Assembly: GCA_019347695.1 (NCBI GenBank)
Contig: JAHWKT010000005.1
Location: 1 to 48,215 of the forward strand
Direction: 5' to 3'
DNA: 48,215 nucleotides
Source of the DNA: Actinomycetota bacterium
GTDB lineage: Bacteria > Actinomycetota > Nitriliruptoria > Euzebyales > JAHELV01
Positions within the stretch are counted from its first letter, which is position 1. Each line of letters starts with the position of its first letter. Shown here piece after piece: positions 16,314 through 47,366 of this stretch. Made by a program: the position numbers and the translations under genes. A model generated the notes under the pieces. The model was not told the DNA's origin and made no database searches. It saw only the letters and a program-made list of their open reading frames with translations.

Positions 16314-16835
16314 TCACGTGTCCTGCTCCGGGCCGGTCGCGGACGCATCCCGCTCGTCGACCTGCTCCTCGGCTCCGGATGACGCGTCGTCGGCGGGGCC
16401 GGACACGGGCTGATCGAGCGGGTTGATCCACCGGACGTCGAAGAACCGGGCGAAGTCGGCGTCGGCGGAGACCACTGCGACCCCGTGATCGATCGCGAGC
16501 GCGGCAAGCGCCGCATCGGTCACCAGTGGCCCGCGGACCCGGTGGTTGCGCACCAGGCGGCCGAGCACGCCCGCGTACGCGGCGGTGGGCTGAGGCACCC
16601 ACGCACGCGGTGCGGCAAGCCAGTCTTCGACCTGCTGCCACGCGACCTCGGGCTCCAGCGGTTCGGCGAACGCGCGCGGGTTCGTGGCGATGCGCAAGAA
16701 CGCGGCGACGGTCTGCCAGGGGAATCCCACCCTGGTCGAGCCGTTGAGCGCATCGACCAACCATGTGCGCGCTCGGTCATGATGCGGATCGTCGGAGTTG
16801 CGGGCGTACAGCAGGATGTTCGCGTCGAGCAGCAT
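16314..16835 (-). CDS. VapC-type PIN-domain toxin
   Basis: A 173-residue PIN-domain ribonuclease. The first catalytic Asp is in MLLDANILLYA (residues 1-11). The later acidic residues are in VTDAALAALAIDHG and VSADADFARF, the latter matching the closing active-site motif. VapC toxins cleave RNA, often initiator tRNA or rRNA, when freed from the antitoxin. The coding start shares one base with the antitoxin stop (TGATG), so the pair is co-translated. The last 35 or so residues, rich in Asp/Glu/Ser, are an unusual tail beyond the usual 130-140 residue domain. Confidence 0.86.
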   Translation of the reverse strand: MLLDANILLYARNSDDPHHDRARTWLVDALNGSTRVGFPWQTVAAFLRIATNPRAFAEPLEPEVAWQQVEDWLAAPRAWVPQPTAAYAGVLGRLVRNHRVRGPLVTDAALAALAIDHGVAVVSADADFARFFDVRWINPLDQPVSGPADDASSGAEEQVDERDASATGPEQDT

Positions 16836-26753: not shown

Positions 26754-26954
26754 ATGCGCACCAACATCGACATCGATGAGCAGCTCCTCGCCGACGCACA
26801 AGCCATCGCCGGCACCGCCACCAAGAAGGCCACGGTCGAGCACGCCCTGCGAGAACTCGTCCGCCGCAAGGACCGACAGCGCATCCGAGAGCTACACGGC
26901 AGCGTCGAGTGGACCGGCGACCTCAACGAGTCCCGCAGCGGCCGACATCAGTGA
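26754..26954 (+). CDS. VapB-type antitoxin
   Basis: A 66-residue ribbon-helix-helix antitoxin starting MRTNIDIDEQLLADAQAIAG, with the typical KKATVEHALRELVRRK helix and a toxin-binding tail ending in the toxin gene overlap (GTGA). It binds the operator just upstream and inhibits the VapC encoded next. Confidence 0.9.
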   Translation: MRTNIDIDEQLLADAQAIAGTATKKATVEHALRELVRRKDRQRIRELHGSVEWTGDLNESRSGRHQ

Positions 26955-27385
26955 TCGTCGTCGACACCACCGTCTGGATCGACTACTTCGCAGGCCGCGA
27001 CGAGAAGCCGCACGTCGGCGAACTGCAGCAGCTCGTGGACGCCGACGCCGGGATCGCACTCACTGACGTCATCCTGGGCGAGATCCTGCAGGGACTGCGC
27101 GGCGAGCACACCGTCCGGCGGGTCGATCAGCGACTGCAAGCGTTCGACATCCTGCGGCTGCGCACGCTCGACGACTTCCGCAACGCCGCTGCGCTGTACC
27201 GGCACGCCGGAAGCAAGGGCAAGACCATCCGCCGAACCCTGGACTGCCTCATCGCGACCGTATGCATCCGCGAGAGCTGCGCCATCCTCCACAACGACCG
27301 CGACTTCGACCACCTCGCCGACGTCACCGACCTCGTGGTGCACGCCGCGCCCCATTCCGGCGACCGGGGCGACCCCACACAATGA
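26951..27385 (+). CDS. VapC-type PIN-domain toxin
   Basis: A 144-residue PIN ribonuclease with all acidic active-site segments: VVDTTVWIDYF (first Asp), LTDVILGEILQGL (Glu), TLDCLIATVC (Asp) and HNDRDFDHLA (final Asp). It starts with GTG overlapping the antitoxin stop by four bases, so translation is coupled. It should cleave RNA when released from VapB. Confidence 0.92.
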   Translation: MIVVDTTVWIDYFAGRDEKPHVGELQQLVDADAGIALTDVILGEILQGLRGEHTVRRVDQRLQAFDILRLRTLDDFRNAAALYRHAGSKGKTIRRTLDCLIATVCIRESCAILHNDRDFDHLADVTDLVVHAAPHSGDRGDPTQ

Positions 27386-42109: not shown

Positions 42110-43701
42110 GTGACGATCACGGTGCCGGTGGATGCTGGCGATGCCACGGTTGCGACGGATGATGCCGGCGGCGAGCAGGATGCACAGCTGACCGAGGTCC
42201 TCGACGGTGCGCTGCTGGCGGCGTACGCAGGCTGGCTGATCTACGAGCGCGGTGTGGACTACGCGACCCACGGACACGTGACGCACCTGCAGATCGGCGG
42301 GCACCGCGCGACGGCGGTGGTGCAGGGCACGCGACCGTACGATGTCACGATCGAACGCGTCGGGTCGACACTGACCTTCGACTGCACGTGCCCGATGGGC
42401 GCGATCGACGAGTTCTGCAAGCACCTGGTCGCGCTCGGGGTGGAGCTCGTCGGCGACGACGAGCCGGACGTCGCCGACGTCGCGCGCGCTGGCCCCGACG
42501 CCCCGCGCGTGGACCCCGATGCCATCGACCTCGACGCATGGCTCGCCGACCAGCCCGCCGACCGGCTGCGCGAGCTGCTGACCGCCGAGGCGGCGCGCGA
42601 CCCGGACGTGCGCCGGCGGCTGTCGGTCGTGGCCGCCGCCGACACTGGCGAGTCGCCCGAGTTGTCGTCGCTGCGCGCGCGAATCACCGACGCCTTCGCC
42701 GTCGGCCATCACCACAGCTACCGCTACATCGAGTACCGCGACGCGTACGCATGGGCGCACGACGTCGAGGCGGTGATCGACGCGGTCGACGAGCTGCTCG
42801 CCGCCGGGTTCGCCGCCGAGACGGTCGCGCTGGCCGAGACGATGCTCGCCGAGCTCAACGACAGCGTCAACTACGTCGACGACTCCGACGGCCACCTGGA
42901 CGGGCTGTTCGAGTCCGCAGCCGACCTGCACCTGCGCGCCTGCGAACAGGCGCGTCCAGACCCGGTCGCGCTGGCCGGGCGGCTGCTGGACTGGGCGCTG
43001 TCGTGGGAGCTGGACGGGTTCCTGTACGCCGTCGGCGACTACGCCGAGGTGCTCGGCAGCGCCGGCCTCGCCGCATACCGCCAGCTCGCCGAGCAGCGCT
43101 GGGCGCAGATCCCCGCGCTCGGCCCCGGCGACGACCACCACGACCGCTTCGCGATCACCACCGTCATGGAGCACCTGGCCGAGACCACCGGCGGACTCGA
43201 CGCGCTGCTCGAGGTGATGCAACGCAACCAGGCGTCGGGGCATGCGTTCGTGCGCATCGCCACGGCCTGCCGCGACCACGACCGCGACGACCTCGCGCTG
43301 GACTGGGCACAGCGCGGCCACCAGGCGTTCCCCGGCGAGTCGCGCCTGACCGAGCTGATCGGCGACATCCACGCAGACCACGGCCGCCACGACGAGGCGC
43401 TGGCCGCCGAACGCGAGCTGTTCACCGGCGGACCGTCGCTCGCCCGCTACCACCGCCTCATGCGCCGTGCCGAGGCAGCCGGGCGCTGGCCGACCGAACG
43501 CGGGCCCGCCACCTCGAACGCGCGCTCGAACCGGCCGACAACCGGGCGTACGACGAGGTCGTCCGGCTGCTGCAGATCATGCGGCCCCTGTACGACGCGA
43601 CCGACCGCGGCGACGCGTTCTCCCCGCTCGTCGCGAGCATCCGCACGAGTTACAAGCGCCGCCGCAACCTCGTCGCCCGCCTCGACCGCGCCCGCCTGTA
43701 G
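42110..43701 (+). pseudogene. SWIM zinc-finger protein with helical-repeat C-terminus, frameshifted near its end
   Basis: The first 460 codons are open: a SWIM finger at about residues 85-105 (FDCTCPMGAIDEFCKHLVAL, a CxCx8CxH pattern), then a long helical-repeat domain (ADRLRELLTAEAARDPDVRR, AGFAAETVALAETMLAELND, LALDWAQRGHQAFPGESRLT) as in DUF6880-like proteins. Near 43495 the reading frame must shift by one to reach ERALEPADNRAYDEVVRLLQ, the normal closing helices, and the stop at 43699. Unshifted, the frame runs on to 43948 with unlikely sequence. SWIM fingers bind DNA or proteins; the role here is unknown. Confidence 0.78.
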
Positions 43702-43985
43702 TCGGCGGCCCGTCTCCCCCACCGGCCACGCCGTCGGGCCATCAGCTGGAACCACTGCTCCACCCGCTCCGTCCCGGGTGCGGTCACCCGTAGGCCGCCG
43801 ATCTCGGACGCACACGCTGATCCCCCGCCAGAGCGTCACAGAGTCAGAAGCACCTCAACCGCACTTCCGCGGTGCCCTCGCCGACCTGGGACGCCACCTC
43901 GTCAGCCTGGCAGGAACACGCCCGCCGCTGAGAGACAGGCCACAGTGACACGTGCGGCTCGCCTGCGCAGACAGCCCAACGACGG
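43702..43985. other. intergenic gap
   Basis: I see no gene, repeat or strong hairpin in these 284 bases between the convergent SWIM and vapC genes. Confidence 0.4.
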
Positions 43986-44393
43986 TCAAGCGACCACCGG
44001 CGTCGGCGGTATGACGAACGCACAGCGGGGTCCGGCTGCGCCCATCAACCGCCGGTCGAGCGTAGCGACCGGCACACCAAGTATCTCAGCAACCGCCACG
44101 TACCACGCGTCGTACGCCGTGACGTTGTAGCGCAGCTCCCAGACCCGCGCGCCGAATGGCTCGTAGGGGTACAGCTGCCACGACATGCGTCGCAGGTCCT
44201 GGTGCGCCGACGCCGCTCGAGACCGATCGATACCCCCCGCGAGCTCACTTCGCCGCAGCAGGTTGGCCGCTTCGACCGGGCACAAGTGCGGCGCAGCCAG
44301 CGGCCCACGCGCCAGTTGCTGCTCAGCCCACCGACCAGTCGTGCCGGAGTCGATGAGCGCGGCCACCACCACCGAAGCGTCGACCACAAGCAC
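43986..44393 (-). CDS. VapC/FitB-type PIN-domain toxin
   Basis: A 135-residue PIN ribonuclease. Active-site acids are in MLVVDASVVVAALI (first Asp), HLCPVEAANLLRR (Glu), TAYDAWYVAVAE (Asp) and VATLDRRLMGA. Residue order and length match the FitB/VapC group. It lies three bases after the antitoxin stop in one operon. Confidence 0.9.
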   Translation of the reverse strand: MLVVDASVVVAALIDSGTTGRWAEQQLARGPLAAPHLCPVEAANLLRRSELAGGIDRSRAASAHQDLRRMSWQLYPYEPFGARVWELRYNVTAYDAWYVAVAEILGVPVATLDRRLMGAAGPRCAFVIPPTPVVA

Positions 44394-44396
44394 TGA

Positions 44397-44630
44397 TCAG
44401 GCCCGGTCCTCGTCGCGCCAGCGAAGCAGGTCGTCCACGTCGAGGACCGCGGGGCTTGCCTCCTTGCGCCGGCGGATCTCGTCGAGCAGTGTGTCCACGT
44501 CGGGACGTGCGGCAAGGTCGGTGAGATGTTGCCGCAGGTACTGCTGGAGCGAGCGGCCGCTGCGCGCAGCTCGACTGGCGAGCTCGTCACGTACGTCGTC
44601 GGGAAGGTCCCTGATCGTCACGCTTGTCAT
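44397..44630 (-). CDS. FitA-like ribbon-helix-helix antitoxin
   Basis: A 77-residue antitoxin: MTSVTIRDLPDDVRDELASR then GRSLQQYLRQHL, an Arc/FitA-like RHH DNA-binding domain, and a toxin-binding tail ending LLRWRDED. It autoregulates through palindromes at its start and neutralises the PIN toxin encoded next. Confidence 0.9.
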   Translation of the reverse strand: MTSVTIRDLPDDVRDELASRAARSGRSLQQYLRQHLTDLAARPDVDTLLDEIRRRKEASPAVLDVDDLLRWRDEDRA

Positions 44631-44646
44631 GCATGCATGCTAGCAT
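44629..44646 (-). promoter_or_regulatory. antitoxin operator-like palindromes
   Basis: Two overlapping 10-base palindromes, ATGCATGCAT (44629-44638) and ATGCTAGCAT (44637-44646), span the antitoxin start codon and leader. Their position suits autorepression by the FitAB/VapBC-like complex. Confidence 0.55.
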
Positions 44647-44758
44647 CATCGCTGCCGTTAGCTCACAGACACTGGCAATCCAGCTCGGCGCGTGCCGGCG
44701 GGTGCGGCGTGGATCAGCCCCATGAGGGGCACTGTACCGGGGCGCGCTCGGCTCGTCG

Positions 44759-44956
44759 CTACCCGTCGTCACGTGGCTGGCCAACGAACTGTGCGACGGT
44801 GTCGGGCTGGTCTTCCATACAGAAGTGGCCGGCGTCGGCGATGACGTGCCGGTCGGCGCCGGGGATGTCGTCGGTCAGACGGTGGGCACAGTCGACCGGC
44901 ATGTCTACCGTGACGTTGCCGAAGGTGACCGGCGCACCACGGGCAGCCCAATCCAT
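44759..44956 (-). pseudogene. haloalkane-dehalogenase-like alpha/beta hydrolase, C-terminal remnant
   Basis: The minus strand encodes GAPVTFGNVTVDMPVDCAHR then IPGADRHVIADAGHFCMEDQ and PDTVAQFVGQP, the catalytic-His end of a haloalkane-dehalogenase/epoxide-hydrolase-type alpha/beta hydrolase. The nucleophile and cap domains are absent. There is no ribosome site at its apparent ATG. The homology begins abruptly about 10 bases from the repeats of the attachment-site-like structure at 44967. Confidence 0.6.
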
Positions 44957-44966
44957 GCCTGTCTCA

Positions 44967-45284
44967 ACGTAGCCAACGTATCTAGCAGATGGCTACGTCG
45001 ACAACCCGCCCGATGCGCTGCAGGTCGCTGACCTGCGGTTTTGCGGTGGAGCTAAGGGAATCGAACCCCTGACCTCTTCCATGCCATGCACACGCCGAAC
45101 CGTCCAACGCGTCCGGCAGCGTCCCATGGAGGCCACCCACGTCCGATCGTATCCGACGGGCGCGCAGCGCAGAAACCGCGTAAGCAAGACGTATTGCGTC
45201 CAATGCGTGATCGCCGGTCCGGCGACGTCGCTCGCTGTCCCGTGACGTCCCAGCGACCGCCGGTGGCTACGTTGCTGGCTACGT
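44967..45284. repeat. four copies of TGGCTACGT flanking the tRNA fragment
   Basis: TGGCTACGT occurs at 44990-44998, 45264-45272 and 45276-45284 on the plus strand, and inverted (ACGTAGCCA) at 44967-44975. The left pair is an inverted repeat with a 14-base spacer; the right pair is a direct repeat with a 12-base period. A tRNA 3' fragment lies between them. The arrangement resembles integrase arm-type sites around an attP core. Confidence 0.55.
45045..45092 (-). tRNA. tRNA-Ala(GGC) 3'-half fragment
   Basis: The minus strand contains an alanine anticodon loop ATGGCAT (anticodon GGC), variable loop AGGTC, a T-arm AGGGG-TTCGATT-CCCTT and the acceptor strand TAGCTCC followed by ACC. The anticodon stem is already mismatched, and no D-arm or 5' acceptor strand (GGGGCTA expected) precedes it. 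It is therefore a partial tRNA, as left at the edge of an element integrated into, or carrying, a tRNA 3' end. Confidence 0.62.
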
Positions 45285-45296
45285 CGGGCGCCCGAC

Positions 45297-45683
45297 TCAC
45301 GTCGACAGCACGGCGACCCCGTACCGGCCGATGACCTGGTCGGCTGTCACGATGCGGAGGTCGTCCACCATCGCCTGCGCGACCAGCATCCGGTCGAAAG
45401 GATCGTTGTGATGCGGCGGCAACGTCGCAGCGGTGCGGGTGTACCGACCGGTGATCGCGAGCTCGGTGAAGCCGTTGCCCACCACCTCGTTGGCGAGGTC
45501 GACGGTGTCGACGTCGAGCTCGAGGCGTCCGAGCGCGGTCTTGATCTCGGCCTCCCATAGACTCGCCGCGCTGACGAACGCCATCACCGAGCTGTCGGCA
45601 ATCGAGGCGCGGGCCTCTGGCGACAGCCGCGGGTCGTCCACCAGCCACCACAGGAACACGTGGGTATCCAGCAGCAGCGACAT
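45297..45683 (-). CDS. VapC-type PIN-domain toxin (Phd-VapC pair)
   Basis: About 128 residues. MSLLLDTHVFLWWLVDDPRL carries the first Asp, AASLWEAEIKTALGRL the Glu, HHNDPFDRMLVAQAMVDDL the third acid, and VTADQVIGRYGV the end. This is the group of PIN toxins that pairs with Phd/YefM antitoxins. It is the intact relative of the broken copy at 28166-28422. ATG at 45683; an extra Met precedes at 45686. The antitoxin gene lies 69 bases upstream. Confidence 0.9.
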   Translation of the reverse strand: MSLLLDTHVFLWWLVDDPRLSPEARASIADSSVMAFVSAASLWEAEIKTALGRLELDVDTVDLANEVVGNGFTELAITGRYTRTAATLPPHHNDPFDRMLVAQAMVDDLRIVTADQVIGRYGVAVLST

Positions 45684-45752
45684 CAACCGCTCCGACTCGT
45701 CGAAGCGTGTCGTATGGTCACCGCGACCCGTGGAAGCGGGGATGCCATCGCG

Positions 45753-45980
45753 TCAGCCGCGGAAGGCGTCGACGAGTTCGTCGGGCAACGGATCGTCGAA
45801 GTCCTCAGCGATCCGGATGCACCCTCGCAGGCTTCCCGGTTGACGCTCAGGCGCTGCGTGCGCCACAAGGCGGGCGATCGGCCGGTTGTTGCGGGCGATT
45901 ACGACTTCCTCACCCTGTTCGACGCGCTCGAGCAACCGTGACAGGTGGGTCTTCGCTTCGTGGACGTTCACAATCGTCAT
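45753..45980 (-). CDS. Phd/YefM-type antitoxin
   Basis: A 75-residue antitoxin: MTIVNVHEAKTHLSRLLERV then GEEVVIARNNRPIARLV, the Phd/YefM DNA-binding domain, and an acidic tail ending DDPLPDELVDAFRG that would wrap the toxin. It precedes the PIN toxin in one operon and should autoregulate it. Confidence 0.92.
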   Translation of the reverse strand: MTIVNVHEAKTHLSRLLERVEQGEEVVIARNNRPIARLVAHAAPERQPGSLRGCIRIAEDFDDPLPDELVDAFRG

Positions 45981-46127
45981 GAACTTAGTCTAGTCTGGTC
46001 ATGCAAGGAGGGCAATCGGGCTGCCGTGGACGCGGAGGCCCAGCGCGACCCAACCAGGTCCTCCCACGCGCTGGACGTTTCCACGGACTACTCTCGACTG
46101 TCCCGATACATCCCGGCGCGGCGCTGG

Positions 46128-46907
46128 TCAGCGCACGACGAGTTCGCCGGCCATGTCGGGGGCGTGGGGGATGCAGTAGAAGCGGTAGGTGCCGGCGTCG
46201 GCGGGGAACGTGACCCGTTGGGTGGCGCCGGGCGGGACGTTGAGGTCGACGCCGAGCTCGTCGATCGTGAATGTGTGCCGCGTAGGGTCGTCGTTGGTGA
46301 CCGTGACCGCGACCTTTCCGCCGTCGGTGGTGATGGTGCGGGTGTCGAACTGGAAGTCCTTGGTGGTCAACTCGATGTCACCGGGCTGGGCTGCGACGCT
46401 GTCGATGCGGGCGGCCGCCACGATCGATACGGCGGTCGCAGCAACCAGCACAACGACAGCCGTTGCCGCAACCCCAGTCGCGGGTCGCGGCGATCGGCGG
46501 GCAGGCTGTCGGGCCTGGCGGAACGCTGGGACGGCCGCGATGCTGCCGGCAAGGGTCGCCAGGGTGAACAGCGTCAGTGGCAGGAAGTCGCCGGGGGTCT
46601 CGGGATGGGTGAGCGCGTCGGCGAGGAACGGCGCGCTCGACACAAGCTCGGCGAGCAGCACGACGCCGAGCACCACGACGCCGGCCCGCCGCCACCGCCA
46701 GACCACCAGCAGGCCGGCGACGATCGGGGTGGCCATCGCCAGGAAGAAGCTTTCGATGCTGCCGGCGATGATCATGGCGATCACGAACGATGCGATCGTG
46801 GCGCAGCCCGCGGCGACAAGCAGGCTGAGCCATCCGACGCGTGGCTGTCTGCTCGACACGACGGGGGCGGTGCGGGTGGGTTGATTGGTGTGGCTGGTGG
46901 TGGTCAT
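46128..46907 (-). CDS. membrane protein with C-terminal cupredoxin domain
   Basis: A 259-residue protein. After a polar N-terminus come about four membrane helices (SLLVAAGCATIASFVIAMII, VVVLGVVLLAELVSSAPF, LTLFTLATLAGSIAAVPAF, GVAATAVVVLVAATAVSIV). The last about 90 residues are an extracytoplasmic cupredoxin: LTTKDFQFDTRTI, DPTRHTFTIDEL (His ligand) and YRFYCIPHAPDMAGELVV (Cys, His, Met ligands of type 1 copper). It may bind copper and pass electrons or handle metal at the membrane. ATG at 46907 is 28 bases after the repaired end of the SnoaL-like gene; without repair the frames are fused. Confidence 0.85.
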   Translation of the reverse strand: MTTTSHTNQPTRTAPVVSSRQPRVGWLSLLVAAGCATIASFVIAMIIAGSIESFFLAMATPIVAGLLVVWRWRRAGVVVLGVVLLAELVSSAPFLADALTHPETPGDFLPLTLFTLATLAGSIAAVPAFRQARQPARRSPRPATGVAATAVVVLVAATAVSIVAAARIDSVAAQPGDIELTTKDFQFDTRTITTDGGKVAVTVTNDDPTRHTFTIDELGVDLNVPPGATQRVTFPADAGTYRFYCIPHAPDMAGELVVR

Positions 46908-46935
46908 CGTCACGTCTTCTGAGGTTCTGTGGGCG

Positions 46936-47366
46936 CTACGCCGCGGTACCCGCGGGACGTGCGCCGAGCTGCAACAGCACGCTGTGGTGTCGACGGCGGC
47001 CGAGTACTCGCCGATCCGGCCGTCGTCGCCGACCCGGTTGACGTCGATGAGCTCGAACGCGACCTGTCGCCCGGTGGGTGCCAGGCCGAGGAGCTCGCCG
47101 GTGTGGGTGCCCCGCACGGTGCTGCGGGTGACGATGCGGTCTGCCTCGACGATCTGGTCCTCGACGATCACGTAAAGATCGGGAAACGCGCGACGCAATG
47201 TCGTGACCGTGTTCTTGAGACCCGCAAGGCCGGTGCGCTCCGGCGGTGTCGAGCTGTGGTCGAGGTCGTCGCACGCGCTGAGCTCGTCGACGACGGGCAG
47301 GTCGCCTTGGGTCCACACCTCCTCGACGAGACGGCGGGCCTGGCGCCTCATCCACTCCGGTGACAT
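46936..47366 (-). pseudogene. SnoaL-like/ester cyclase family protein, frameshifted near its end
   Basis: ATG at 47366 has AGGAG seven bases upstream. The product starts MSPEWMRRQARRLVEEVWTQ and contains LKNTVTTLRRAFPDLYVIVE, RSTVRGTHTGELLGLAPTGR and DVNRVGDDGRIGEY, typical of SnoaL-like/SPBc2 ester-cyclase proteins. Near 46985 a one-base shift restores the usual ending SVLLQLGARPAG and a stop at 46936. As given, the frame instead runs through into the cupredoxin gene. These small proteins cyclise or hydrate small molecules; the substrate is unknown. The indel needs checking. Confidence 0.75.

Follow-up and report, generated by a model that had tools for sequence, protein, structure and literature searches.

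The 318-bp block at positions 44967-45284 of the window (the whole 48,215-nucleotide stretch of DNA analysed here) is probably a complete, decaying attP site of a family of actinobacterial integrative elements that targets tRNA-Ala genes, and it most likely marks the junction of two units that carry toxin-antitoxin (TA) genes and lack an integrase. Read in the sense of the tRNA, the block has the attP-type order of P arm, tRNA-Ala(GGC) 3' half and P' arm (Table 1). The 9-mer TGGCTACGT occurs in it four times exactly (44967-44975, minus strand; 44990-44998, 45264-45272 and 45276-45284, plus strand) with no further exact copy within the window, against an expectation from shuffled sequence of 0.10 per 48 kb; four copies were reached in 0 of 100 shuffles. 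An earlier note on this DNA had placed inverted and direct copies of the 9-mer around a tRNA-Ala(GGC) 3' fragment and likened the structure to an attP site, with a tRNA 3'-end core and arm repeats on both sides. The four copies lie where it put them, the fragment is confirmed on the minus strand between them, and both the core identity and the arms on either side bear out the likeness.

Table 1. Features of the putative attP site and its surroundings in the window
Feature	Position	Strand	Remarks
Interval from the last homology to G003:C43 (left) to the first homology to G003:C69 (right)	43705..46125	.	Holds the whole site and the TA genes
PIN-domain toxin, VapC-like	43986..44393	-	PF01850, 1.5e-9
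FitA-like ribbon-helix-helix antitoxin	44397..44630	-	PF22513, 2e-12
Small ORF starting just outside P'	44759..44956	-	PF12697, E 0.006, below cut-off
Outer P' arm site (TGGCTACGT, minus strand)	44967..44975	-	Exact
Middle P' arm site, decayed	44976..44987	-	Intact TGGCTACGT there in C181, G002b and G003_84
Core-proximal P' arm site (ACGTAGCCA, minus strand)	44990..44998	-	Exact
Short hairpin 3' of the core (GCAGGTC-n-GACCTGC)	45018..45040	-	Read from sequence
Core, tRNA-Ala(GGC) 3' half with one base missing	45046..45088	-	43/44 to C167:2-74
GGAC-rich conserved stretch from P arm to core, ~175 bp	45089..45263	-	~80-86% identity among copies
P arm, two arm sites with 3-base spacer (ACGTAGCCA-GCA-ACGTAGCCA)	45264..45284	-	Identical in every complete P copy within the genus
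PIN-domain toxin, VapC-like; 3' end 12 bases from the P arm	45297..45686	-	PF01850, 5e-11
Phd/YefM antitoxin	45753..45980	-	PF02604, 2e-12

Copies of the site generally have the layout of an asymmetric attP with two plus three arm sites, the P' side of the sister copies usually comprising three arms in the order ACGTAGCCA-N2-TGGCTACGT-TGGCTACGT. The window copy is decayed at two points, the middle P' arm site and one base of the core, and it is therefore doubtful that the site still works. The hairpin motif is present 3' of the core in most copies and, by its sequence, is perhaps the remnant of a tRNA terminator. A search of the 318-bp block against Rfam gave no RNA family above noise, and ARAGORN found no intact tRNA in the window.

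All genomes compared are drafts, that of the window being 88% complete. Its intact tRNA-Ala(GGC) gene lies on the minus strand at C167:2-74, and the window core matches the last 44 bases of this gene at 43 positions, one base being absent; the core thus has the identity with a tRNA-Ala 3' end without which the earlier proposal would fall. Nor is the 9-mer common in the genome, where it has 18 exact copies against 25 for the reversed control. Eleven of the 18 fall in the window block and two sister blocks (C130:7713-7954 and C181:1302-1552) and seven are singletons, while the pair TGGCTACGT-N3-TGGCTACGT, allowing up to two mismatches, has exactly three occurrences, one in each block. The cores of both sister blocks match the intact gene at 44/44 positions, and the C181 block has lost part of the GGAC-rich stretch that separates its P arm from its core. 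The last base of the core is both the start of contig C167 and the end of C130, which fits a junction that the assembler could not resolve; a mixture of strains or a plain repeat could account for it as well.

Both arms lie inside the interval bounded by homology to two contigs of the same-genus genome G003, an interval that is not a proven insertion since its two flanks are on different G003 contigs. No clean empty site was recovered in three relatives, no attL or attR bounds the interval, and no further arm occurs within one mismatch in 43000-47000. No integrase was found among the ORFs at the site, PF00589 had no match on the window's contig, and no relaxase or other mobilization gene was recognised in 43705-46125. 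The presence of both arms means that the window site is not an island edge of the attL/attR type, and that it is most likely the junction of two element units rather than a single edge. Of the two possibilities raised earlier, an island edge or a tandem element that has lost its integrase, the edge therefore falls; the tandem is supported by a pair of sites in another genome of the genus (below), and no matching integrase turned up in the genus.

Additional copies are held by three same-genus genomes, G001, G002 and G003. The P' trio is present in four genomes of the genus (reversed control, 0) and was found in none of 57 order- and class-level relatives; the exact trio has no match in viral contigs, and the trio with up to three mismatches has none in nine phylum relatives. 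On G002:C69 two complete sites in the same orientation form a tandem at a distance of 3.1 kb. VapBC lies in the interval, and a MazF-type toxin stops ~14 bp short of the first P arm; no integrase was recognised in this 3.1-kb unit, which is partly masked. G003:C84 carries one site with a VapBC pair. On G003:C93 the junction is heterotypic, P and core of the TGGCTACGT/ACGTAGCCA type being joined to a foreign P' with TGGACCC repeats, which resembles the sequence beside an integrase that G002 carries at its intact tRNA-Ala(GGC). P-core-P' junctions between units are thus seen as a tandem on G002:C69 and in heterotypic form on G003:C93, and two element families appear to share tRNA-Ala(GGC) as a target. 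That G002 enzyme, a different tyrosine integrase (G002:C136, L061:1255-2631), ends 16 bases from the 3' end of the tRNA-Ala(GGC); its locus also has the TGGACCC repeats and an excisionase-like ORF of the HTH_17 type, and belongs to the second of these families. G001:C59 holds P', Phd-VapC and P inside 1.4 kb, with no core found in this unit; its P arm-VapC-Phd segment aligns with window positions 45134-46001 as one uninterrupted block at 83% identity. The same contig (L058:2729-7465) also carries sigma-factor-like, SMC-like ATPase and Ku-like genes, from the Phd-VapC unit to another P'-like site. A P-plus-core copy on G003:C46 (L060:6294-7992) is broken directly after the core beside a transposase gene, perhaps by insertion of a transposase-bearing element; in view of this break we did not take it for an attR.

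Nearly all copies have TA genes as neighbours. At the window site, Pfam identifies TA proteins on both sides, including the PIN and Phd/YefM proteins of the Phd-VapC pair that the earlier note had seen next to it, and TA proteins likewise adjoin the C181, G002 and G003 copies; next to the C130 copy lie a ribbon-helix-helix-type protein and a gene that has no match and is probably broken, and at the second G002 site masked bases precluded a call. The ORF just outside the window's P' is perhaps a C-terminal fragment of an alpha/beta hydrolase, to go by its sub-threshold match. G001-G003 have 18 PIN genes in ~12.2 Mb, and a PIN gene lies within 1.5 kb of four of their five P sites (binomial 4e-9, or 1e-8 with the partial C46 copy counted as a miss), while in the window's own genome, with 27 PIN genes, two of three sites have one near (0.002); as the sites had been seen before the test was set up, these figures describe an association and do not test a prior prediction. 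The count of 27 compares with 3-8 in the three same-genus genomes, and two more PIN-domain genes lie in the window at 16446-16835 and 26954-27319.

Species genomes in GTDB were searched for the arm pair. At ten actinobacterial loci outside the genus the P pair is followed, ~190-215 bp on, by a tRNA 3' half, mostly of tRNA-Ala(TGC), once of tRNA-Ala(GGC) and twice of what was read as tRNA-Val; the tRNA core varies between loci while the arms are constant, and several of these genomes hold more than one copy. Matches to the arm pair outside Actinomycetota were taken as chance, the few inspected having no comparable tRNA half. Genes on the P side of the wider family encode DUF4160/DUF2442, DUF433/DUF5615, VapBC and HEPN with a nucleotidyltransferase-like partner, and also Wadjet-like JetA/JetB and a DNA methylase; on the P sides of L106, L107 and L113 neither a TA nor a defence gene was recognisable.

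Most of the listed integrase genes in the wider-family genomes were scanned, with their flanks, for arms. An arm cluster lies beside an integrase in five of nine genomes, in each case in the order tRNA-Ala, P' arms and a ~390-aa tyrosine integrase, and all five integrases belong to one family (64-80% identity to that of L271). The tRNA is tRNA-Ala(TGC) at L270, L271, L273 and L276 (partly masked) and tRNA-Ala(GGC) at L287, and where pairs were compared, the core next to the integrase agrees with the P-core copy of the same genome at 44-46 of 46 positions, or 41/46 for one genome's second copy. This co-occurrence of tRNA-Ala, the same arms and an integrase suggests that the 9-mers probably serve as arm sites for a family of integrases that target tRNA-Ala. 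Among the phage and plasmid matches listed, none exceeds 30% identity to the L271-type integrase. G069:C77 brings together, within ~11 kb, an integrase of this family that the contig end truncates, a long relaxase/helicase-like protein and the P pair; a helicase-type protein adjoins the integrase at L271 and L077 has a TrwC relaxase, so at least some wider-family elements are probably integrative and mobilizable elements (IMEs). At L103, in G065, an integrase remnant lies 3' of the core.

An integrase with matching arms, one of the things by which the earlier note's reading could be judged, thus exists beside intact tRNA-Ala in other Actinomycetota; the window's genus yielded no member of the family, the best match to the L271 type among the integrases fetched being 27% identical. 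The 13 PF00589 integrases of the window's genome were rejected as partners, none having paired arms beside it or falling in the matching family, and the integrase at the intact tRNA-Ala(GGC) of G002 was set aside because its flank has TGGACCC repeats and not TGGCTACGT. The order of the P' arms differs between the window's genus and the integrase-bearing elements, suggesting that the actual partner may be a related enzyme rather than the L271 type itself.

A consistent view of these sites can be proposed in which the family's tyrosine integrase probably binds the ACGTAGCCA/TGGCTACGT arm sites and would drive recombination between the element and a tRNA-Ala 3' half. The window block would then be a former tandem junction, P of one unit joined to P' of another, and this copy may have arisen by accretion. 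Units without an integrase would either be moved in trans or have lost the gene, and the TA pairs could help the units to persist by stabilising them. Ordinary decay, in which a single IME, ICE or prophage with its own integrase has been deleted down to its att region and TA genes and the integrase-less units never moved as such, is possible but less probable. It is consistent with the integrase carried by elements of the wider family, with the remnant in G065 and with the decayed state of the window copy itself. However, a lone integrated element would leave attL and attR and not P-core-P', no integrase was recognised in the partly masked G002 tandem unit, and several copies per genome have no adjacent integrase.

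The outer 9-mers are inverted and conservation ends near them, as would be expected of a miniature transposable element, i.e. a 318-bp repeat that a transposase would move by its TGGCTACGT terminal inverted repeats, the tRNA half inside it having been captured by chance. This we consider highly improbable, as complete copies show by eye no target-site duplication outside the arms, P with core and P' occur separately (P' beside tRNA-Ala and an integrase), the arms stay constant while the tRNA core changes, and the arm numbers, two and three, are asymmetric. Bacterial genomes often contain incomplete tRNA copies, and an unrelated tRNA pseudogene might in principle lie near coincidental 9-mers. 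That four 9-mers fall within 318 bp when 0.10 are expected per 48 kb argues against such a coincidence, and the recurrence of the layout in four genomes of the genus and at ten other loci refutes it, leaving it a negligible probability.

Each component of the junction of integrase-less units proposed here is a known kind of thing, and the closest known systems are cis-mobilizable elements (CIMEs) with their accretion structures and tandem ssrA islands. CIMEs are units without integration or transfer genes, beside att sites common to a mobile element, and tandem accretion structures at a tRNA gene are known (PMC5704250). The window interval resembles them in having neither integration nor transfer genes. 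A CIME, however, keeps attL and attR, whereas complete attP copies are present here, the window has no attL or attR that we could find (for which reason we do not file its copy as a CIME), and the units are very small (~1.4-4.3 kb) with TA genes nearly always adjoining. TA and restriction-modification cargo is known in IMEs (PMC5704250), which the wider family resembles through its integrase at tRNA-Ala and, in some members, a MobF-type relaxase or helicase; the window copy differs in having neither integrase nor relaxase. The tandem ssrA islands of Dehalococcoides, of which 15 lack the integration module (PMC3146451), are alike in forming arrays at a single RNA gene. What is distinct here is a complete attP in several integrase-less copies, a near-constant TA neighbour and arms kept across genera as the core changes. 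We found no description of the element family or of the small TA-plus-attP units in the literature and databases searched, and no paper on tRNA-Ala elements with these features.

Integron gene cassettes are small units without an integrase that have their own recombination site and often carry TA pairs. A more speculative reading, which we think unlikely, would make the present units their tRNA-based counterpart, 1.4-4.3 kb TA-plus-attP units without an integrase that are cut and pasted in trans. The movers would be integrases of mobilizable elements targeting tRNA-Ala or tRNA-Val, arrays would build up in Actinomycetota and the TA pair would keep each unit in place. The site here differs from that of a cassette in being an attP that derives from a tRNA and has arm repeats. 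Should units without an integrase prove mobile, the spread of TA pairs that have no integrase of their own would become testable.

The arm pair ACGTAGCCA-N3-ACGTAGCCA, when a tRNA 3' half follows it at ~190-215 bp, is a sequence tag for the ends of an actinobacterial mobile-element family that is apparently undescribed, and it works even where no integrase survives. As the slot beside the P arm often holds TA, methylase or Wadjet-like genes, the tag could also be used to search for defence and addiction cargo.

Two further observations concern neighbouring sequences. The motif GCAAAACCGCAGGTCAGAGGCC lies 3' of the C181 core and also just upstream of tRNA-like sequence at G000:C22:10104-10129 and G003:C49:28805-28827, the tRNA-like sequence at G000:C22 being tRNA-Arg beside an integrase. 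Three tyrosine recombinase genes stand in a row on a 3.2-kb contig (G000:C55:717-3050, L064), an arrangement like that of a recombinase-in-trio, and similar runs of tyrosine recombinases occur on G068:C466 and elsewhere.
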